Positions 3,598 to 47,202 of a stretch of 64,000 nt of DNA are shown here, in pieces (the stretch's first letter is position 1; each line of letters starts with the position of its first letter). Position numbers and translations under genes: made by a program. This stretch comes from Terriglobus saanensis SP1PR4 (GTDB lineage Bacteria; Acidobacteriota; Terriglobia; Terriglobales; Acidobacteriaceae), in assembly GCF_000179915.2 (NCBI RefSeq), contig NC_014963.1:3658001-3722000 (forward strand), read 5' to 3'. The notes beneath the pieces are model-generated. The model searched no databases. It was given only the letters and a program-made list of their open reading frames with translations, and was not told the origin of the DNA.

Positions 3598-5967
3598 TTA
3601 CTCGGTATCACCCTGGGCAAAACGATCTATGCCCTCGGTGAGTCCGTACTTGGCAATGAGCTTGGAGCGACGAACCCGGTCTTTCGGCTTGGTGGAGAAG
3701 GCTGCATAGCTACGGTTGTCCAGATTCAGCCGCACAACTTTGGTCAGGCCGTCGCGGCGGATGTACAGCGCTTCCCGGTCCTGCAAGCTCTCGAAGAGAG
3801 CGAGCTGCTGCTCGTTCATCTTGAACAGCTCGACGTACCGCTTTCGATTGAACGTGGCATCGCGCAGGAACAGGAACGAGGTGCAGGAATTCACGATGCT
3901 GTCAGCGTTCGCCCCGAGATCTTCGGCGGACTGGCCGATCATGGTTACTCCGCCAAGGTTCTTGCGGACGGTCTTGATCGAAGCCAAAGCAGCGTCCAAG
4001 AGCTGCTTGTTCTTCATCGAAGAGAAGACCTCCTCGATAAGGATGTGCTTGGGGACACCCAGATTGGCCGGGTTGTAGAGCACATCGTTGATGCGTCGCA
4101 GCAGCCACACCATTAGAGGCTCAATCAGGTCGGCATACTGAGCGTTGTTCACACCCTGGAAGTCGAAGCACTGCACACGAGACAACGAGAGGCTGTCCTC
4201 CACATTGTCGAAGATCGCGCTATAGACTCCTCGGCCAACCCACTTCGACAGATATCGGTCGAGCTTCTTGGGCAGGTAAAGATTGGAAAGGCGGCGGTTC
4301 GCGGGATCGAGCAGGTACATATCCTGAACCGCCTTGTGGATCACGTCATCATCTTCTGGCTCCAGCTCCGCGCCGCCGTTGGTGAGCAGCAGCTTGATGA
4401 AGCTATAGAGGAACTGGATGTTGCTCTCCGTTGGTTCGAGCGTGAACGGGTTCGCGCGCGGGCCGTCTTTGCCAATGCGGTCTACGCGGCCACCGTATAG
4501 TTCGACGACGCTTTCATAGCTGCCGCCGATGTCGAAGATATAGGTAAATCCGCCGTATTTCTGCTCATGCGCGATGGTGGCATTCCCGGTCATGGACTTA
4601 CCGCTGGCCGTAGGCCCGAGGATGAGCTGCACCCGCACGCCATCCACATAGGCATCCTGAAAGAAAGGTGTTCCCGTCCGAGTCTCGAAGACGTTCAGAT
4701 ACTCCGCATCAAGGTCATCGGAATAGGGGTGACCGAGGTTCGGGGCGAAGATAGAGGACAGCCGCGCGTGGTGGTCTTCCGCCATCCACATCGGAAAGAC
4801 ATTGAACTTCCCATTGCCGGGGAACATCGCGTAGAACGCGGAGAGGTTTCCCAACGTCTCTTCCATGATCTGTGCGCGTGCTTCTACGAAGACGCGATGC
4901 ACAGCGGGAGATAGCGAGTGCAACTCAGCGACGTTACGTGCGGCGACAAGCAAGCGGAGGGAGTATTCGCCCTGGGATTTCTTATCGAGCTCGCGAATCA
5001 CGTCGCCGAGGTCATCGACGGCATTATTGGCGGCTTTCGCGCCAGCTCCGGTATCAAGCGATGCCGTATCCTTGCCCGCCATGACGCGGGAGAGCACACC
5101 AACTTTGAAGAACGAGATGAACTTCTCTTGCTGGTCGATCTCATGCCGTGCCGTCGCCGTTGACTTAGGCCGCCACGTCGAGCACAGGATGCTGTCACAG
5201 TCGAGCTTGAGCAGGTCCGCGAAGAGACAGGGACGCGATGCCTCCGGCGTCGTCTTCAGCGAATACATCTGCACGTATCGCCTGCCGATGCGCAGATGAT
5301 CGCTCTCCCACGACACGGGGTTCTGCACGATCTGACGGTCCACGCCGGTGTCGCTGCGGAGTTGTCCCCATTCCGCCCAGTCCTGAAGGTTGAACAGATA
5401 GCTGAAGAACTGAAACGCAGCCTGCTTGTCCAACAGGCTAAGCCCTATGGTGCTGCCGAGATTTCCGGCAAGCAAGGTGGCTGTCTTCTCAAGCTCTGCC
5501 AGCATCCGCGACGTTGCGACGGCGTTCTCCGGCGGCCTGCGGTCGAAGGCTTCGACCTTGGATGGTTCCAACGTAAGGCACCAACGCAAGTCAATTCGGC
5601 GGAAGGCCGCGGTCTGCTGCAGAAACTCAAGTCGGTCACGTACAAACCCGTGCGTAACCGGATTGCTGTAACTCTGCTGACGGGGTAGATCGTACCCAGA
5701 GCGAACGCGCGCGTACTGGTAGAGACAGCCGCCTTCCGGCAGCCCACGCAGTGCGCCTTCGATCATGCGAAGTTGCGACTCAAGCTCTTGGTCGGTCAGG
5801 CCCTCTTCGTCCACACCGGAGAGCGCAAAGAGGCATCCATAGCCGCCGCCCTTCAGCGCAAAGATGTGGTCGCTGACAAAGCGCGCAATCGGGACGATGC
5901 TGCACGCCGCGCCCGCCTTGGCGAACCACGGAACGTATTTTGCTTGCTCAGTGCTTGCGCGGGTCAT
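3598..5967 (-). CDS. trbE: TrbE/VirB4-like type IV secretion ATPase
   Basis: A 789-residue ATPase that powers pilus assembly and substrate transfer at the inner membrane. The N-terminal CagE/TrbE domain covers roughly the first 400 residues. The C-terminal RecA-like domain carries a Walker A motif (GPTASGKSMTG, near residue 455) and a Walker B-like strand (HILIEEVFSSM, near residue 644) with Glu where many family members have Asp. A further conserved segment (MIGQSAEDLG) follows. The length is normal for the family. The gene overlaps the end of trbD by 20 bp, which suggests coupled translation. Confidence 0.95.
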   Translation of the reverse strand: MTRASTEQAKYVPWFAKAGAACSIVPIARFVSDHIFALKGGGYGCLFALSGVDEEGLTDQELESQLRMIEGALRGLPEGGCLYQYARVRSGYDLPRQQSYSNPVTHGFVRDRLEFLQQTAAFRRIDLRWCLTLEPSKVEAFDRRPPENAVATSRMLAELEKTATLLAGNLGSTIGLSLLDKQAAFQFFSYLFNLQDWAEWGQLRSDTGVDRQIVQNPVSWESDHLRIGRRYVQMYSLKTTPEASRPCLFADLLKLDCDSILCSTWRPKSTATARHEIDQQEKFISFFKVGVLSRVMAGKDTASLDTGAGAKAANNAVDDLGDVIRELDKKSQGEYSLRLLVAARNVAELHSLSPAVHRVFVEARAQIMEETLGNLSAFYAMFPGNGKFNVFPMWMAEDHHARLSSIFAPNLGHPYSDDLDAEYLNVFETRTGTPFFQDAYVDGVRVQLILGPTASGKSMTGNATIAHEQKYGGFTYIFDIGGSYESVVELYGGRVDRIGKDGPRANPFTLEPTESNIQFLYSFIKLLLTNGGAELEPEDDDVIHKAVQDMYLLDPANRRLSNLYLPKKLDRYLSKWVGRGVYSAIFDNVEDSLSLSRVQCFDFQGVNNAQYADLIEPLMVWLLRRINDVLYNPANLGVPKHILIEEVFSSMKNKQLLDAALASIKTVRKNLGGVTMIGQSAEDLGANADSIVNSCTSFLFLRDATFNRKRYVELFKMNEQQLALFESLQDREALYIRRDGLTKVVRLNLDNRSYAAFSTKPKDRVRRSKLIAKYGLTEGIDRFAQGDTE

Positions 5968-6225: not shown

Positions 6226-6567
6226 CTACATCGACTGCCCGGTCAGCGAGCCGATCCAACCGGCTCCCCAGCCGAGAACTCCAGCGCCAAACAGCGCACC
6301 GAAGAGTCCTGGAATGGCATCTTGAAATCGCCCACTCATCATGCGAATGCCCGCAAAAATGAGCCCGCCCAGACAGATAACGGCACCAGCGTACATGGCA
6401 AAAGTTTTGAAGGTTGTCATGAGCGTTGTTGCGCCAGAGAAGTCCATCGTTCCCTGGGCGTGGGCAACTCCGGCACAAGCGAGGGTGAAGAGCGCAGGCA
6501 GAAGCGTGCGCCCAACTTGGAGGAAACCCCGCGTAAGCGAGCTACGACGATACGAATTCAGTGACAT
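6226..6567 (-). CDS. trbC: TrbC/VirB2-like pilin precursor
   Basis: A 113-residue pilin precursor. I chose ATG 6567 (MSLNSYRRSSLTRG) because AGGAGA lies 8 nt upstream; the open frame extends further but without a plausible ribosome site. A long signal sequence ends in GVAHAQG, followed by two hydrophobic helices separated by a short polar loop, ending in SLTGQSM. This matches TrbC/VirB2, which is cleaved and polymerised into the conjugative pilus. It is the first gene of the transfer operon in this window. Its SD lies in a region able to fold with upstream RNA. Confidence 0.88.
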   Translation of the reverse strand: MSLNSYRRSSLTRGFLQVGRTLLPALFTLACAGVAHAQGTMDFSGATTLMTTFKTFAMYAGAVICLGGLIFAGIRMMSGRFQDAIPGLFGALFGAGVLGWGAGWIGSLTGQSM

Positions 6568-43726: not shown

Positions 43727-46111
43727 GTGTTTACATCATTCGTAAAAAAGATTGCCTTTCTTTTCCTGTTCGCTCTCTCATGTGGAGCGCATCAGGTTGT
43801 TGCCCAGGAGCCAGCCCTTACGGGCCAGATCATCGATCCTTCCGGAGCGGTCGTAGTCAACGCAAATGTCACGCTGAGCAATAGCCAGACCCAGGGGATA
43901 CTTCGTACCTCTTCCGGCTCAACTGGCGTCTACAGCTTCACTACCGTGCCGCCTGCCACGTACACCGTGACCATTACCGCCACAGGTTTCGGTCTCCGGC
44001 AGATCCCGCTCACCGTCACGAACCAGCCGCGCACGCTCGATATCAAGCTGCAGTTGGAGTCCGCATCCCAGTCCGTTACCGTGCAGGGCGAGGGTGTGGC
44101 CCTCCAACAGACCGCCGCCGTCGGGAAGACCAACACACGGCTGGAGGAGATGCCCCTCAGCATTCAGATCATCGGCCGCGAACTGGCCAACGCACAGGGC
44201 GACCTCTCGCTCAAGGACACCATTCGCAACTCCAGCGGCGTCGTGCAGGGCGGGTCCGACGGCTTTGGCTTCGGTGACCGCTTCCAGATCCGCGGTCTGG
44301 AGGCGCGCATCTACAACGACGGATTCTCCGATGGAGACGAGCGCAACGGTATTCCGCATTCGCTCAACGGCGTCGAGCGCATTGAAGTCCTCGAAGGCCC
44401 TGGCTCCTCGCTCTTCGGCAGCGGACCTCCGGGCGGCACTATCAACATGGTGCACTTCATGCCGTCCCCTGCTCTTCACTACGGTGGAACGTTTCAGGCT
44501 GGTTCGTTCGATCTCTATTCCGGAAGCGCCTTCCTCACCGGAGCCACGCGCATTCACGGCCTCAACTACCGCATCGATGGCCTCGCGCAGCATGAGAACG
44601 GATTCCGCGCCCTTGAAAGCGCCGACTACGAGCTTCGTCCTGTCCTCAGTTGGAACGTTGGGCATCACTTCCTCACCTTCGTCGGCGATGGCCGCAGCCT
44701 GCAGGCCACGCCCGACCCCGCTGGCCTGATCTACCTCGGCGCAACCCCCATCGCCAGCGTCTCGCGCACTGCGAAATACTCGACACCCTTCAGCCTTGGC
44801 GACCAGAGCCTGGCCCGTTCCACGCTCTCCGATGTATGGCCTGTCAGTTCATCGCTCACTGTGACCAATCGTTTCTCGTACATGTATCGCAACCTCTCCA
44901 TCCTGCGGAACGGAGACGGCGGTACCATCACCGGCACCGTCTTCAGCGGACGCCAGCTCCGCAAGCAGCACGATGTCTTGAATGACTTCGACTACGAGGC
45001 AGAGGCCGTCTGGATCTTCCACACCGGAAGAATTCGCCATACGCTGCTCACCGGCTTCGAGGCGCAGCACCAGAGCATCGATGATAACCGCGCGACCGCC
45101 GATCTTCCGAACATTACCGATATCTTCCATCCCGTCGTTCCCGAGACCTCAACCGCTGGCCTCGTCTTCCTGCAGGATGCGAAGCACTCCGGCTTCCACG
45201 ACAATCTCTCTGCCAACTACTTTGGCCTTTACGCTACAGATCAGATCGACGTCACGCAGCGCCTGAAGGTCCGCGTCGGCGGACGTCAGGACTGGTGGGA
45301 CACGACGTTGACGCCAAAGGTCTTCGTGCCGGGCCGTATCTTCACCGGAACCACACTCATCGAGCCGCCCGCGCAATTCAGCCGCGACGATTCTCCGTTC
45401 AGCTGGAACGCGGGCGCAACGTACAGGCTCTTCGGCAACGTCTCGCCCTTCTTTGGAGTTGCGCGCAGCAACCTCGTTAACTTCACCTCCGAGGCCACGC
45501 AGAATGGCGTGCAGGCACCGGAGAACGGTCTGCAGTACGAAGCCGGCCTCAAGCTCTCCGCGTTCAACAATCGCGTCGTCGTCACCGGGGCAGCCTTCGA
45601 CGTCAAGCGCAACAATGTCTTCACCCTTGTCGGCGATGTCCCCGTCTTCAACGATCAGAAGACGAATGGCGGAGAAGCCAACGTGCAGCTCCTCATCACA
45701 CGCCGCTGGAAGATCTCAGCCAACGGCACCGGCCAGCACACGTGGCTGACGGACAATCCTTCCAACACGGCGGCAACGGGCAAACGCCCCGTCGGTGTGC
45801 CGCAACATATCTTCAACCTGTGGACGACTTATGACGTGAAGCTCCCTCGCATTCATGGACTCAATCTTGGTGGTGGATTGACCAATCGAGACCGCATGTT
45901 CGGCGACATCCTCAACACGAAATTCGTCCCCGACTACACCACGCTCGACAGCGTGCTCTCGTACACAGCGCATCGGTGGAATGCTTCGCTGGGCTTCAGA
46001 AATCTTACGGACACGCGTTACTTCGTCGCCGCAAACGGTGCGGGTGGATTCGTCGGCGTGCCGCGATCGTTCTTCGTCACCGTACGCAAGTCGTTTGGTT
46101 CGGATCGATAA
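43727..46111 (+). CDS. TonB-dependent siderophore-type receptor with N-terminal carboxypeptidase-like domain
   Basis: A 794-residue outer-membrane receptor. It starts at GTG 43727 with GAGGA upstream and has a signal peptide ending HQVVAQ. Residues about 30-120 form a carboxypeptidase-regulatory-like beta-sandwich (LTGQIIDPSGAVVVNANVTL, PATYTVTITATGFG). The plug domain follows (RLEEMPLSIQIIGRELANAQ, ERIEVLEGPGSSLFGSGPPG), then the 22-strand barrel ending GVPRSFFVTVRKSFGSDR with the usual hydrophobic last strand. The plug pattern is that of siderophore receptors, but the ligand is unknown. The Tn3-type cassette inserted 5 bp after its stop. Confidence 0.93.
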   Translation: MFTSFVKKIAFLFLFALSCGAHQVVAQEPALTGQIIDPSGAVVVNANVTLSNSQTQGILRTSSGSTGVYSFTTVPPATYTVTITATGFGLRQIPLTVTNQPRTLDIKLQLESASQSVTVQGEGVALQQTAAVGKTNTRLEEMPLSIQIIGRELANAQGDLSLKDTIRNSSGVVQGGSDGFGFGDRFQIRGLEARIYNDGFSDGDERNGIPHSLNGVERIEVLEGPGSSLFGSGPPGGTINMVHFMPSPALHYGGTFQAGSFDLYSGSAFLTGATRIHGLNYRIDGLAQHENGFRALESADYELRPVLSWNVGHHFLTFVGDGRSLQATPDPAGLIYLGATPIASVSRTAKYSTPFSLGDQSLARSTLSDVWPVSSSLTVTNRFSYMYRNLSILRNGDGGTITGTVFSGRQLRKQHDVLNDFDYEAEAVWIFHTGRIRHTLLTGFEAQHQSIDDNRATADLPNITDIFHPVVPETSTAGLVFLQDAKHSGFHDNLSANYFGLYATDQIDVTQRLKVRVGGRQDWWDTTLTPKVFVPGRIFTGTTLIEPPAQFSRDDSPFSWNAGATYRLFGNVSPFFGVARSNLVNFTSEATQNGVQAPENGLQYEAGLKLSAFNNRVVVTGAAFDVKRNNVFTLVGDVPVFNDQKTNGGEANVQLLITRRWKISANGTGQHTWLTDNPSNTAATGKRPVGVPQHIFNLWTTYDVKLPRIHGLNLGGGLTNRDRMFGDILNTKFVPDYTTLDSVLSYTAHRWNASLGFRNLTDTRYFVAANGAGGFVGVPRSFFVTVRKSFGSDR

Positions 46112-46121
46112 ACCGCTTCTA

Positions 46122-46159
46122 AGGGTCACTACACCAAACGTCAAAAATCGTACGCTAAG
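46122..46159 (+). repeat. left 38-bp Tn3-type terminal inverted repeat
   Basis: It runs from AGGGTC to CTAAG; it differs from the right copy by base changes and a compensating single-base gap. Confidence 0.88.
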
Positions 46160-46292
46160 GATCTGTTGCGCAAACCTGTCGCCAATGGAGCAGCAATAGC
46201 AATAGCTTTTTGCAACACGATATGCTGGGATTTAGTTCCAAGCACGTTGGCTTGCATAAACGTTTGTTTCCGCAACACTGCTAATCGCTTCG

Positions 46293-47048
46293 CTACGTCA
46301 GACCCATAGCTCCGTCCGAGACCACAATTTCACCAGTTAGGTAGTCGGAGGCTATCAACATCATGACGATTTGGGCGATATCCGCCGGGCTGGCTGGCCG
46401 CCGCATAGGCGAACGGTCTCGCCAAAGCTGCTGGGCAGCCGTCCAATCCTCTGTCAGAGGCGTGTCCACGAGGCCAGGAGCGACGGCATTCACCCTAATG
46501 TCCGGGGCGAGCGATAGGGCGAGCAGTCGGGTGACATGGTTTAGCGCTGCTTTGGACGCGGCGTAAGGAATTGATGCGCCCTTGGGCCGGACGCCAGCGT
46601 GTGAGCTGATATTGACAACGCACGCCGGTCGACCGCGCCTGACCGCATCTCTCAGAGCTGTTTCGGCCTCCGCCACAAGGCGAAACGGGGCCACCACGTT
46701 GACTTCGTAGAGCTCGTGCCACACGGCGGGCAAAGCCGCCATAAGATCGGTATGGGGAATAACGCTGCTAATTCCGGCATTGTTGACAAGGACATCGAGG
46801 CGGTTCCAGCGAGACACAGCCTCCCTCACGAGCCTGATTCTATCGGCATCGTCAGCCAAATCAGCTTGAATGTAAATAGCCTTTCCAAGTTCAATGGCTA
46901 GCGCGTGCCCCGTTTCAGCTGAACTGCGCGAGTGCAGGACTACGGCATATCCCTCGTTGGACAATCGACGGGCGATCGCAGCACCGATGCCAGAAGTGGA
47001 GCCGGTCACAAGGGCAACAGGCGAGGAACTATTCGCAGTTTGGTTCAA
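46293..47048 (-). CDS. SDR-family oxidoreductase, cargo of the Tn3-type cassette
   Basis: A 251-residue classical SDR starting at TTG 47048 (reads MNQTANSSSPVALVTGSTSG) with GGAG 7 nt upstream. A longer frame runs back through the terminal repeat but has no start signal. Cofactor motif VTGSTSGIGAAIARRL, NNAG in VLVNNAGISS, catalytic region NISSHAGVRPKGASIPYAAS-K, and VAPGLVDTPLTEDW near the end. All SDR hallmarks are intact, so the enzyme is likely active; substrate unknown. It is the only gene inside the cassette and ends 171 bp from the left repeat. Confidence 0.9.
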   Translation of the reverse strand: MNQTANSSSPVALVTGSTSGIGAAIARRLSNEGYAVVLHSRSSAETGHALAIELGKAIYIQADLADDADRIRLVREAVSRWNRLDVLVNNAGISSVIPHTDLMAALPAVWHELYEVNVVAPFRLVAEAETALRDAVRRGRPACVVNISSHAGVRPKGASIPYAASKAALNHVTRLLALSLAPDIRVNAVAPGLVDTPLTEDWTAAQQLWRDRSPMRRPASPADIAQIVMMLIASDYLTGEIVVSDGAMGLT

Positions 47049-47063
47049 AAATATTCTCCATTG

Positions 47064-47101
47064 CTTAGCATACGATTTTGACGTTTGGTGTAATGACCCT
47101 T
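47064..47101 (-). repeat. right 38-bp Tn3-type terminal inverted repeat
   Basis: Reverse complement reads AAGGGTCATT...TGCTAAG; the outer end abuts the TTCTA duplication at 47102-47106. Confidence 0.88.
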
Positions 47102-47202
47102 TTCTACGACAAATCCCGTCTCTGAACCAGAGACGGGACTGCCAACGAGCTCGTTCTGTTCGCGGATGCGTGGGTAGAGGATACCCACGCACTGCCTTCT
47201 TC

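Follow-up and report, generated by a model that had tools for sequence, protein, structure and literature searches.

The 64-kb window analysed here (bases 3658001 to 3722000 of the one-contig 5.1-Mb genome of Terriglobus saanensis SP1PR4) contains a 980-bp element at positions 46122 to 47101 that is flanked by TTCTA duplications and that is, with high confidence, a non-autonomous transposon of the Tn3 family. This mobile insertion cassette keeps the transposon ends and a putative res site but neither of the two enzymes, probably derives from a parent with the order repeat-tnpA-tnpR-res-cargo-repeat and would be moved by a matching TnpA protein in trans. Judged by its sequence, the element shows those hallmarks of a mobile insertion cassette of Tn3 origin that were tested here. 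The initial annotation had classified it in this way, which agrees with the lack of a transposase gene, the single passenger gene, the different insertion sites in two genomes and the presence of an empty site; its description of the anatomy holds, with the exception of the res stretch at 46164 to 46283, which it had overlooked. The features of the element are as follows.

46117 to 46121, no strand: left target-site duplication TTCTA, from the sequence and from a single TTCTT at the empty site of genome G252
46122 to 46159, plus strand: left terminal inverted repeat of Tn3 type, 38 bp, corresponding to the tnpA-side end of the parent
46164 to 46283, plus strand: putative res (cointegrate resolution) site, 120 bp, from an nhmmer match upstream of the tnpR gene of Granulicella sp. 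dw_53
46252 to 46275, plus strand: distal dyad of res (TTGCATAAACGTTTGTTTCCGCAA), presumed site I, picked by eye and from alignments
46293 to 47048, minus strand: gene of an SDR-family oxidoreductase, 251 aa, TTG start, sole cargo, from the reading frame, Pfam and dN/dS
47064 to 47101, minus strand: right terminal inverted repeat, 38 bp including an extra outer base, from the repeat alignment
47102 to 47106, no strand: right target-site duplication TTCTA, from the sequence

Ends of the Tn3 family were defined by terminal inverted repeats of 38 to 40 bp with related sequence and by a 5-bp target-site duplication. Both features were found at the borders of the element, and binding of a TnpA protein to the ends is predicted from their sequence. 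The two 38-bp repeats that had been described around a 980-bp segment were recovered at 46122 to 46159 and 47064 to 47101, and their alignment contains two mismatches, a one-base insertion and a one-base deletion. The outer ends are one base out of register (A-GGGTC on the left, AA-GGGTC on the right), and due to the mismatches and indels the right duplication begins one base further out than the left repeat predicts. The sequence TTCTA, which had been noted exactly at both junctions, is indeed present on both sides, but for an exact duplication the right repeat has to be taken as 38 bp including its extra outer base. The reported insertion 5 bp past a TonB receptor gene was also confirmed, as the respective ORF stops at 46111 and the left duplication starts at 46117. 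Between the element and a minus-strand gene for an anti-sigma-factor-like protein, two hairpin-forming stretches were seen by eye at 47113 to 47190 that are absent from the aligned intergenic region of G252.

Since SDR genes are common and two further SDR-like stretches are located in the window, it was considered whether inverted repeats might surround an ordinary SDR gene by coincidence. When the entire 5.1-Mb genome was searched, the two repeats matched each other with an E value of 2e-7 and a single isolated end of similar sequence was detected besides them, so that chance can be ruled out as the origin of the pair; the duplication, the empty site and the mobile relative described below likewise speak against coincidence, which is extremely improbable.

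The same element was detected on plasmid pACIX902 of Granulicella tundricola MP5ACTX9 with 85.6% identity over 99% of its length. This copy lies among other genes, is bordered by TTACT at both ends and has its 38-bp ends and the 5-bp duplication in register. Accordingly, the situation that had been named as contradicting a mobile cassette, i.e. the same 980 bp devoid of repeats, was not encountered in this copy. Among 72,556 plasmid records, pACIX902 is the only one that covers at least 80% of the window element. In a set of 250 genomes of the same family (own included), which comprises G. tundricola and Acidisarcina polymorpha, 46 genomes matched the element at E 0.001, mostly over short regions representing an end or a part of the SDR gene. 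Genome G101 contains an intact SDR gene with 81% identity and no end detected nearby, and G219 from the same genus carries a decayed SDR copy with 70% identity at a different locus. Both flanks of the insertion were present only in G252 and the own genome among 19 genomes of the genus (own included). In G252, the sequence is continuous with a single TTCTT, compared with TTCTA...TTCTA in the window. The predicted empty site thus contains one 5-base copy, although it reads TTCTT instead of the expected TTCTA and agrees in four of the five bases; the right intergenic DNA of G252 is otherwise diverged and part of the right flank of the window is missing. With different sites and duplications in two genomes and an empty site in a third, the element has moved as a unit.

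Searches outside the family yielded more distant ends. A 24-base end pattern had no matches in viral contigs. When the consensus end was compared with plasmids, the best 40 of 441 matching records included, G. tundricola aside, hits with 86.8% (Alicyclobacillus dauci, Thiodictyon), followed by matches with 84.2% (TnShfr1-like and others), and no close helper was seen among these best 40. A plasmid of Rhizobium sp. L51/94 (L007, 3948 to 4840) carries an SDR pseudogene that is 80% identical to the window cargo and matches positions 160 to 941 of the element, the span from res to the right repeat. The pseudogene is located between two direct copies of another kind of end, resembling Tn3-type ends on many plasmids, with a recombinase gene close by, and Rhizobium was rejected as a carrier of the same element.

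The putative res site begins four bases inside the left repeat, and the stretch from 46164 to 46283 recurs in elements whose genes differ widely. When its copies from the window, L005, L053 and L069 (four in all, dw_53 excluded) were combined into an nhmmer model, this model matched the bases directly upstream of the tnpR gene of Granulicella sp. dw_53 with an E value of 1.7e-16 (L073, 1657 to 1767, with the tnpR start at 1769). With an earlier model, in the making of which dw_53 had been used, no match was obtained at E 1 on the reversed loci. In Tn501, res is described as lying upstream of tnpR, with site III adjoining tnpR and the crossover taking place in site I (PMC7157771). By analogy, the orientation of res in the window would equal the Tn501 order, with the clearest dyad (46252 to 46275) facing the cargo and all subsites being putative; the stretch may act as a resolution site of the window element.

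A transposon of the parent type was found in Granulicella sp. dw_53. Read from the tnpA side, it consists of repeat, tnpA, tnpR, res and cargo, and it encodes a TnpA protein of 990 aa (DDE_Tnp_Tn3, E 3e-157; NCBIfam Tn3 transposase, 1189 bits at a cut-off of 500) and a TnpR protein of 190 aa (Pfam Resolvase, E 1e-47). Positions 2 to 38 of the left repeat of the window are identical to the tnpA-side end of this transposon (37 bases). Its far (left) end is uncertain, given that the bases flanking the transposon on the outside (TTATC versus ATATT) form no matching duplication. The window element has the order repeat, four bases, res, cargo and repeat, and this structure results if tnpA and tnpR, from the repeat to the start of tnpR, are deleted. 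Judged from this comparison, the window element looks like the parent minus tnpA and tnpR. Additionally, an intermediate was identified in Granulicella sp. S156 that has two repeats, TCCTA duplications, part of res (E 9.5e-12), a gene for a PadR regulator, a gene for a 232-aa protein without Pfam match and a tnpA remnant with 88% identity to the dw_53 TnpA over 86 aa.

A Tn3 transposase with a matching repeat, for which a search in the own genome and its relatives had been proposed, is therefore present beside the repeat in dw_53; it was not found in the own genome, where a search with PF01526 gave no match (the same search detected matches in two of 14 control genomes). Likewise, no dw_53-like TnpA was detected in G. 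tundricola (G268) at E 1e-30. Neither of the present hosts thus shows a helper, and the window copy is probably stranded, since no Tn3 transposase was detected in its own genome. The dw_53 TnpA was matched at E 1e-30 in 12 of the 62 genomes of the dw_53 genus, five of which contain stretches with at least 87% identity: a complete one in G350, which is dw_53 itself, and partial ones in G390, G405, G408 and G359. Repeat-res heads are also present in dw_53 and G359.

That no helper transposase was found in the own genome and that a form with an internal deletion and a residual piece of tnpA exists would also be consistent with the insertion of a full Tn3 transposon at this position that subsequently lost tnpA and tnpR in place, the short form never having been mobile as such. 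This course of events is improbable. G. tundricola contains the same short form, with the same junction and the SDR gene, at another site with its own duplication, and a similar junction, whose spacer is three to four bases long wherever it could be measured, is found ahead of other cargos; the same deletion is unlikely to have occurred independently more than once. The mobile insertion cassette would instead have arisen when a parent with the order repeat-tnpA-tnpR-res-cargo-repeat lost tnpA and tnpR and the tnpA-side repeat was joined to the start of res. A matching TnpA protein in the same cell would then bind both repeats and paste the element into a 5-bp target, generating a cointegrate that a matching TnpR protein would resolve at res.

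The complete SDR gene that had been recognised as the only gene of the element, in the absence of transposase and resolvase genes, was confirmed by the ORF list and by Pfam. Its reading frame is intact and specifies an adh_short_C2 domain (E 5e-48). Between the window and the G. tundricola copy, dN is 0.053 and dS is 0.428, which indicates from sequence comparison that purifying selection has kept the gene. The annotated start of the G. tundricola gene is an ATG a little upstream of the shared start; by visual inspection, the window is two bases shorter between this ATG and the shared start, and the ATG corresponding to the G. tundricola start is consequently out of frame in the window. The best 25 of 227 NCBIfam matches were all below the cut-off and the best solved chain, 5iz4, is itself only a putative SDR, and no substrate is claimed. 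No sigma-70-like promoter was found in the element, which is uninformative as shuffled sequences average only 0.6 sites.

An oxidoreductase as sole cargo had been regarded as unusual. It is the sole cargo here, but it is one of several cargos that are located behind the same head. The G. tundricola head gave matches at E 1e-5 in 22 of 398 family genomes (own included), some of them to the end only, and an end with res beside it was detected at 14 loci in 11 genomes (window, L005, L006, L048, L049, L053, L069, L163, L164, L165, L166, L167, L168 and L169). Ten of these 11 genomes belong to the same family; the exception, L069, belongs to a metagenome record labelled Fibrobacteres bacterium. The repeat of L048 is decayed and the locus is an SDR relic, L053 has a group II intron between repeat and res, and res is shortened in L006 and L164; outside the 14 loci, only a small part of res is present in L055 and L056. 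The spacer between repeat and res comprises three to four bases in the 12 loci where it is measurable, which points to a single ancestral repeat-res junction.

A recognisable second end is present in six of the 14 loci (window, L005, L049, L053, L163 and L165). The 5-bp duplications are exact in three of these elements (window, G. tundricola and G359) and inexact in L165, L049 and L053, with four, three and two of five bases agreeing, respectively. The cargo of the six elements comprises an SDR gene twice, RibD_C, ankyrin repeats, GntR with an ABC ATPase, and a 191-aa protein without Pfam match; the GntR/ABC ATPase element includes two more ORFs beyond those covered by the Pfam scan. Where no clear second end was recognised, the head is followed by a gene for an M28 peptidase in L166, for an Rce1-like protein in L167 and for a glyoxalase-like protein in L169; the gene for a GGDEF protein behind the L168 head may belong to the host DNA, and the ORF behind the L069 head, at a contig end, looks like an aldo/keto reductase gene. 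The second ends of L166 and L169 are half-recognisable, none was found for L167 and the best candidate of L168 is at background level; these four loci were not counted as two-ended.

The comparison of elements with different cargo revealed where their similarity ends. The heads of L166 (G262) and L169 (dw_53) are nearly identical and the match stops at the end of site I, followed by the unrelated genes for the M28 peptidase and the glyoxalase-like protein; the similarity of the window element to L053 and to L069 extends to this same point. That the most similar pair with different cargo diverges where res site I ends is suggestive, though not proof, of an exchange of cargo by a resolvase, and exchange at res site I has been proposed for full Tn3 transposons (PMC7157771). 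As a tentative model, one ancestral repeat-res head of the Acidobacteriaceae might serve as a reusable docking platform, at which a helper TnpR would swap halves consisting of cargo and distal repeat at site I, so that one-gene transposons would be assembled and re-assorted in an integron-like manner devoid of an integrase or transposase of their own. There is about an even chance that the cargo was captured by ordinary recombination, one-ended transposition or repeat-to-repeat exchange, the homology ending at site I because nothing else is shared. The common head may simply end where its function ends, second ends are mutated or missing in several elements, and the aligned elements resemble one another in the right half of site I, so that the crossover point cannot be placed. 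The near-identical heads of L166 and L169, diverging at the end of site I into unrelated cargo, and the proposal of site I exchange in other Tn3 transposons stand against capture by these routes. This question concerns the history of the family, and capture of either kind is compatible with the interpretation of the window element as a mobile insertion cassette.

Several observations relate to the repeats of other loci. Group II introns were identified in L053 from position 4502 (G072) and in L058 from position 6401 (G150) by matches to Rfam RF02005 with 178 and 188 bits, respectively. Their starts, which were placed by eye at the GTGCG consensus, lie just inside the Tn3 repeat after TACGTTA or TACGCTA, suggesting that the inner end of the repeat is the target of these introns. 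The lone related end in the own genome (C1:1435316; L004 1501, L066 7317) is followed by DNA with 72% identity over 203 bases to the L058 intron, a stretch that was not reported by Rfam at the gathering score. It is probably a decayed intron in a decayed element, and a second cassette at this position was rejected, since no partner end was found in the 14 kb read around it and the decayed intron follows. In L052, L062, L064, L071, L072 and L163 another end type was observed, in which the repeat ends with GCTAGC and a similar stretch follows, reading GAATTGAGGC... in L072 and L163 with variants in the other four loci; this is perhaps the cargo-side end of the autonomous transposon. Moreover, in L051 (7217 to 7300; G201:C25) a repeat is fused almost directly to a site-I-like dyad and the rest of res is missing.

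The assignment to other classes of Tn3-related elements was also considered. An autonomous Tn3 transposon was rejected, as no TnpA or resolvase gene is located between the repeats, and a TIME or MITE, i.e. a short element of about 50 to 500 bp without cargo gene, was rejected on account of the 980 bp and the intact gene. With the dw_53 transposon, which has a Tn501-type order with res upstream of tnpR and a colinear tnpA, the window element shares the repeats, res and their order relative to the cargo, but it has neither tnpA nor tnpR. TIMEs, as characterised in published descriptions, likewise have Tn3 repeats and 5-bp duplications but no transposase, and some contain res; they are miniature (e.g. 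262 bp), the simplest being gene-free, their genes travel between two TIMEs (TIME-COMP), and the gene of TIME-RES is a resolvase gene. In the window element, by contrast, the gene is directly enclosed by a repeat-res head on one side and a plain repeat on the other. Retained res sites are known for IS101 and have been proposed for TIME244 (PMC13367494).

Previously described short non-autonomous Tn3 derivatives, as presented in the sources cited here, stem from resistance plasmids, mine-site pseudomonads, bacilli and plant pathogens. No paper combining Granulicella and Tn3 was found in the open-licence literature searched, and within this literature the acidobacterial family, its common head and its range of cargo are new. 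The family from soil acidobacteria combines varied cargos with a named helper candidate and a putative resolution site that has been retained, and it allows a direct test of the use of resolvase sites in cargo exchange; furthermore, the repeat together with the res head can serve as a search key for moved genes in acidobacteria. The name mobile insertion cassette dates from MIC231 of Bacillus cereus (PMC6542083), and Tn3-derived MICs, there termed minimal insertion cassettes, have been described on plasmid pXAC64 of Xanthomonas citri (PMC7157771). Like these MICs, the window element consists of transposon ends around passenger DNA, lacks transposition genes and is expected to move in trans; compared with the Xanthomonas MICs as depicted in the figure legend, it differs in its single metabolic gene, its acidobacterial host and the putative res site beside one of its repeats.
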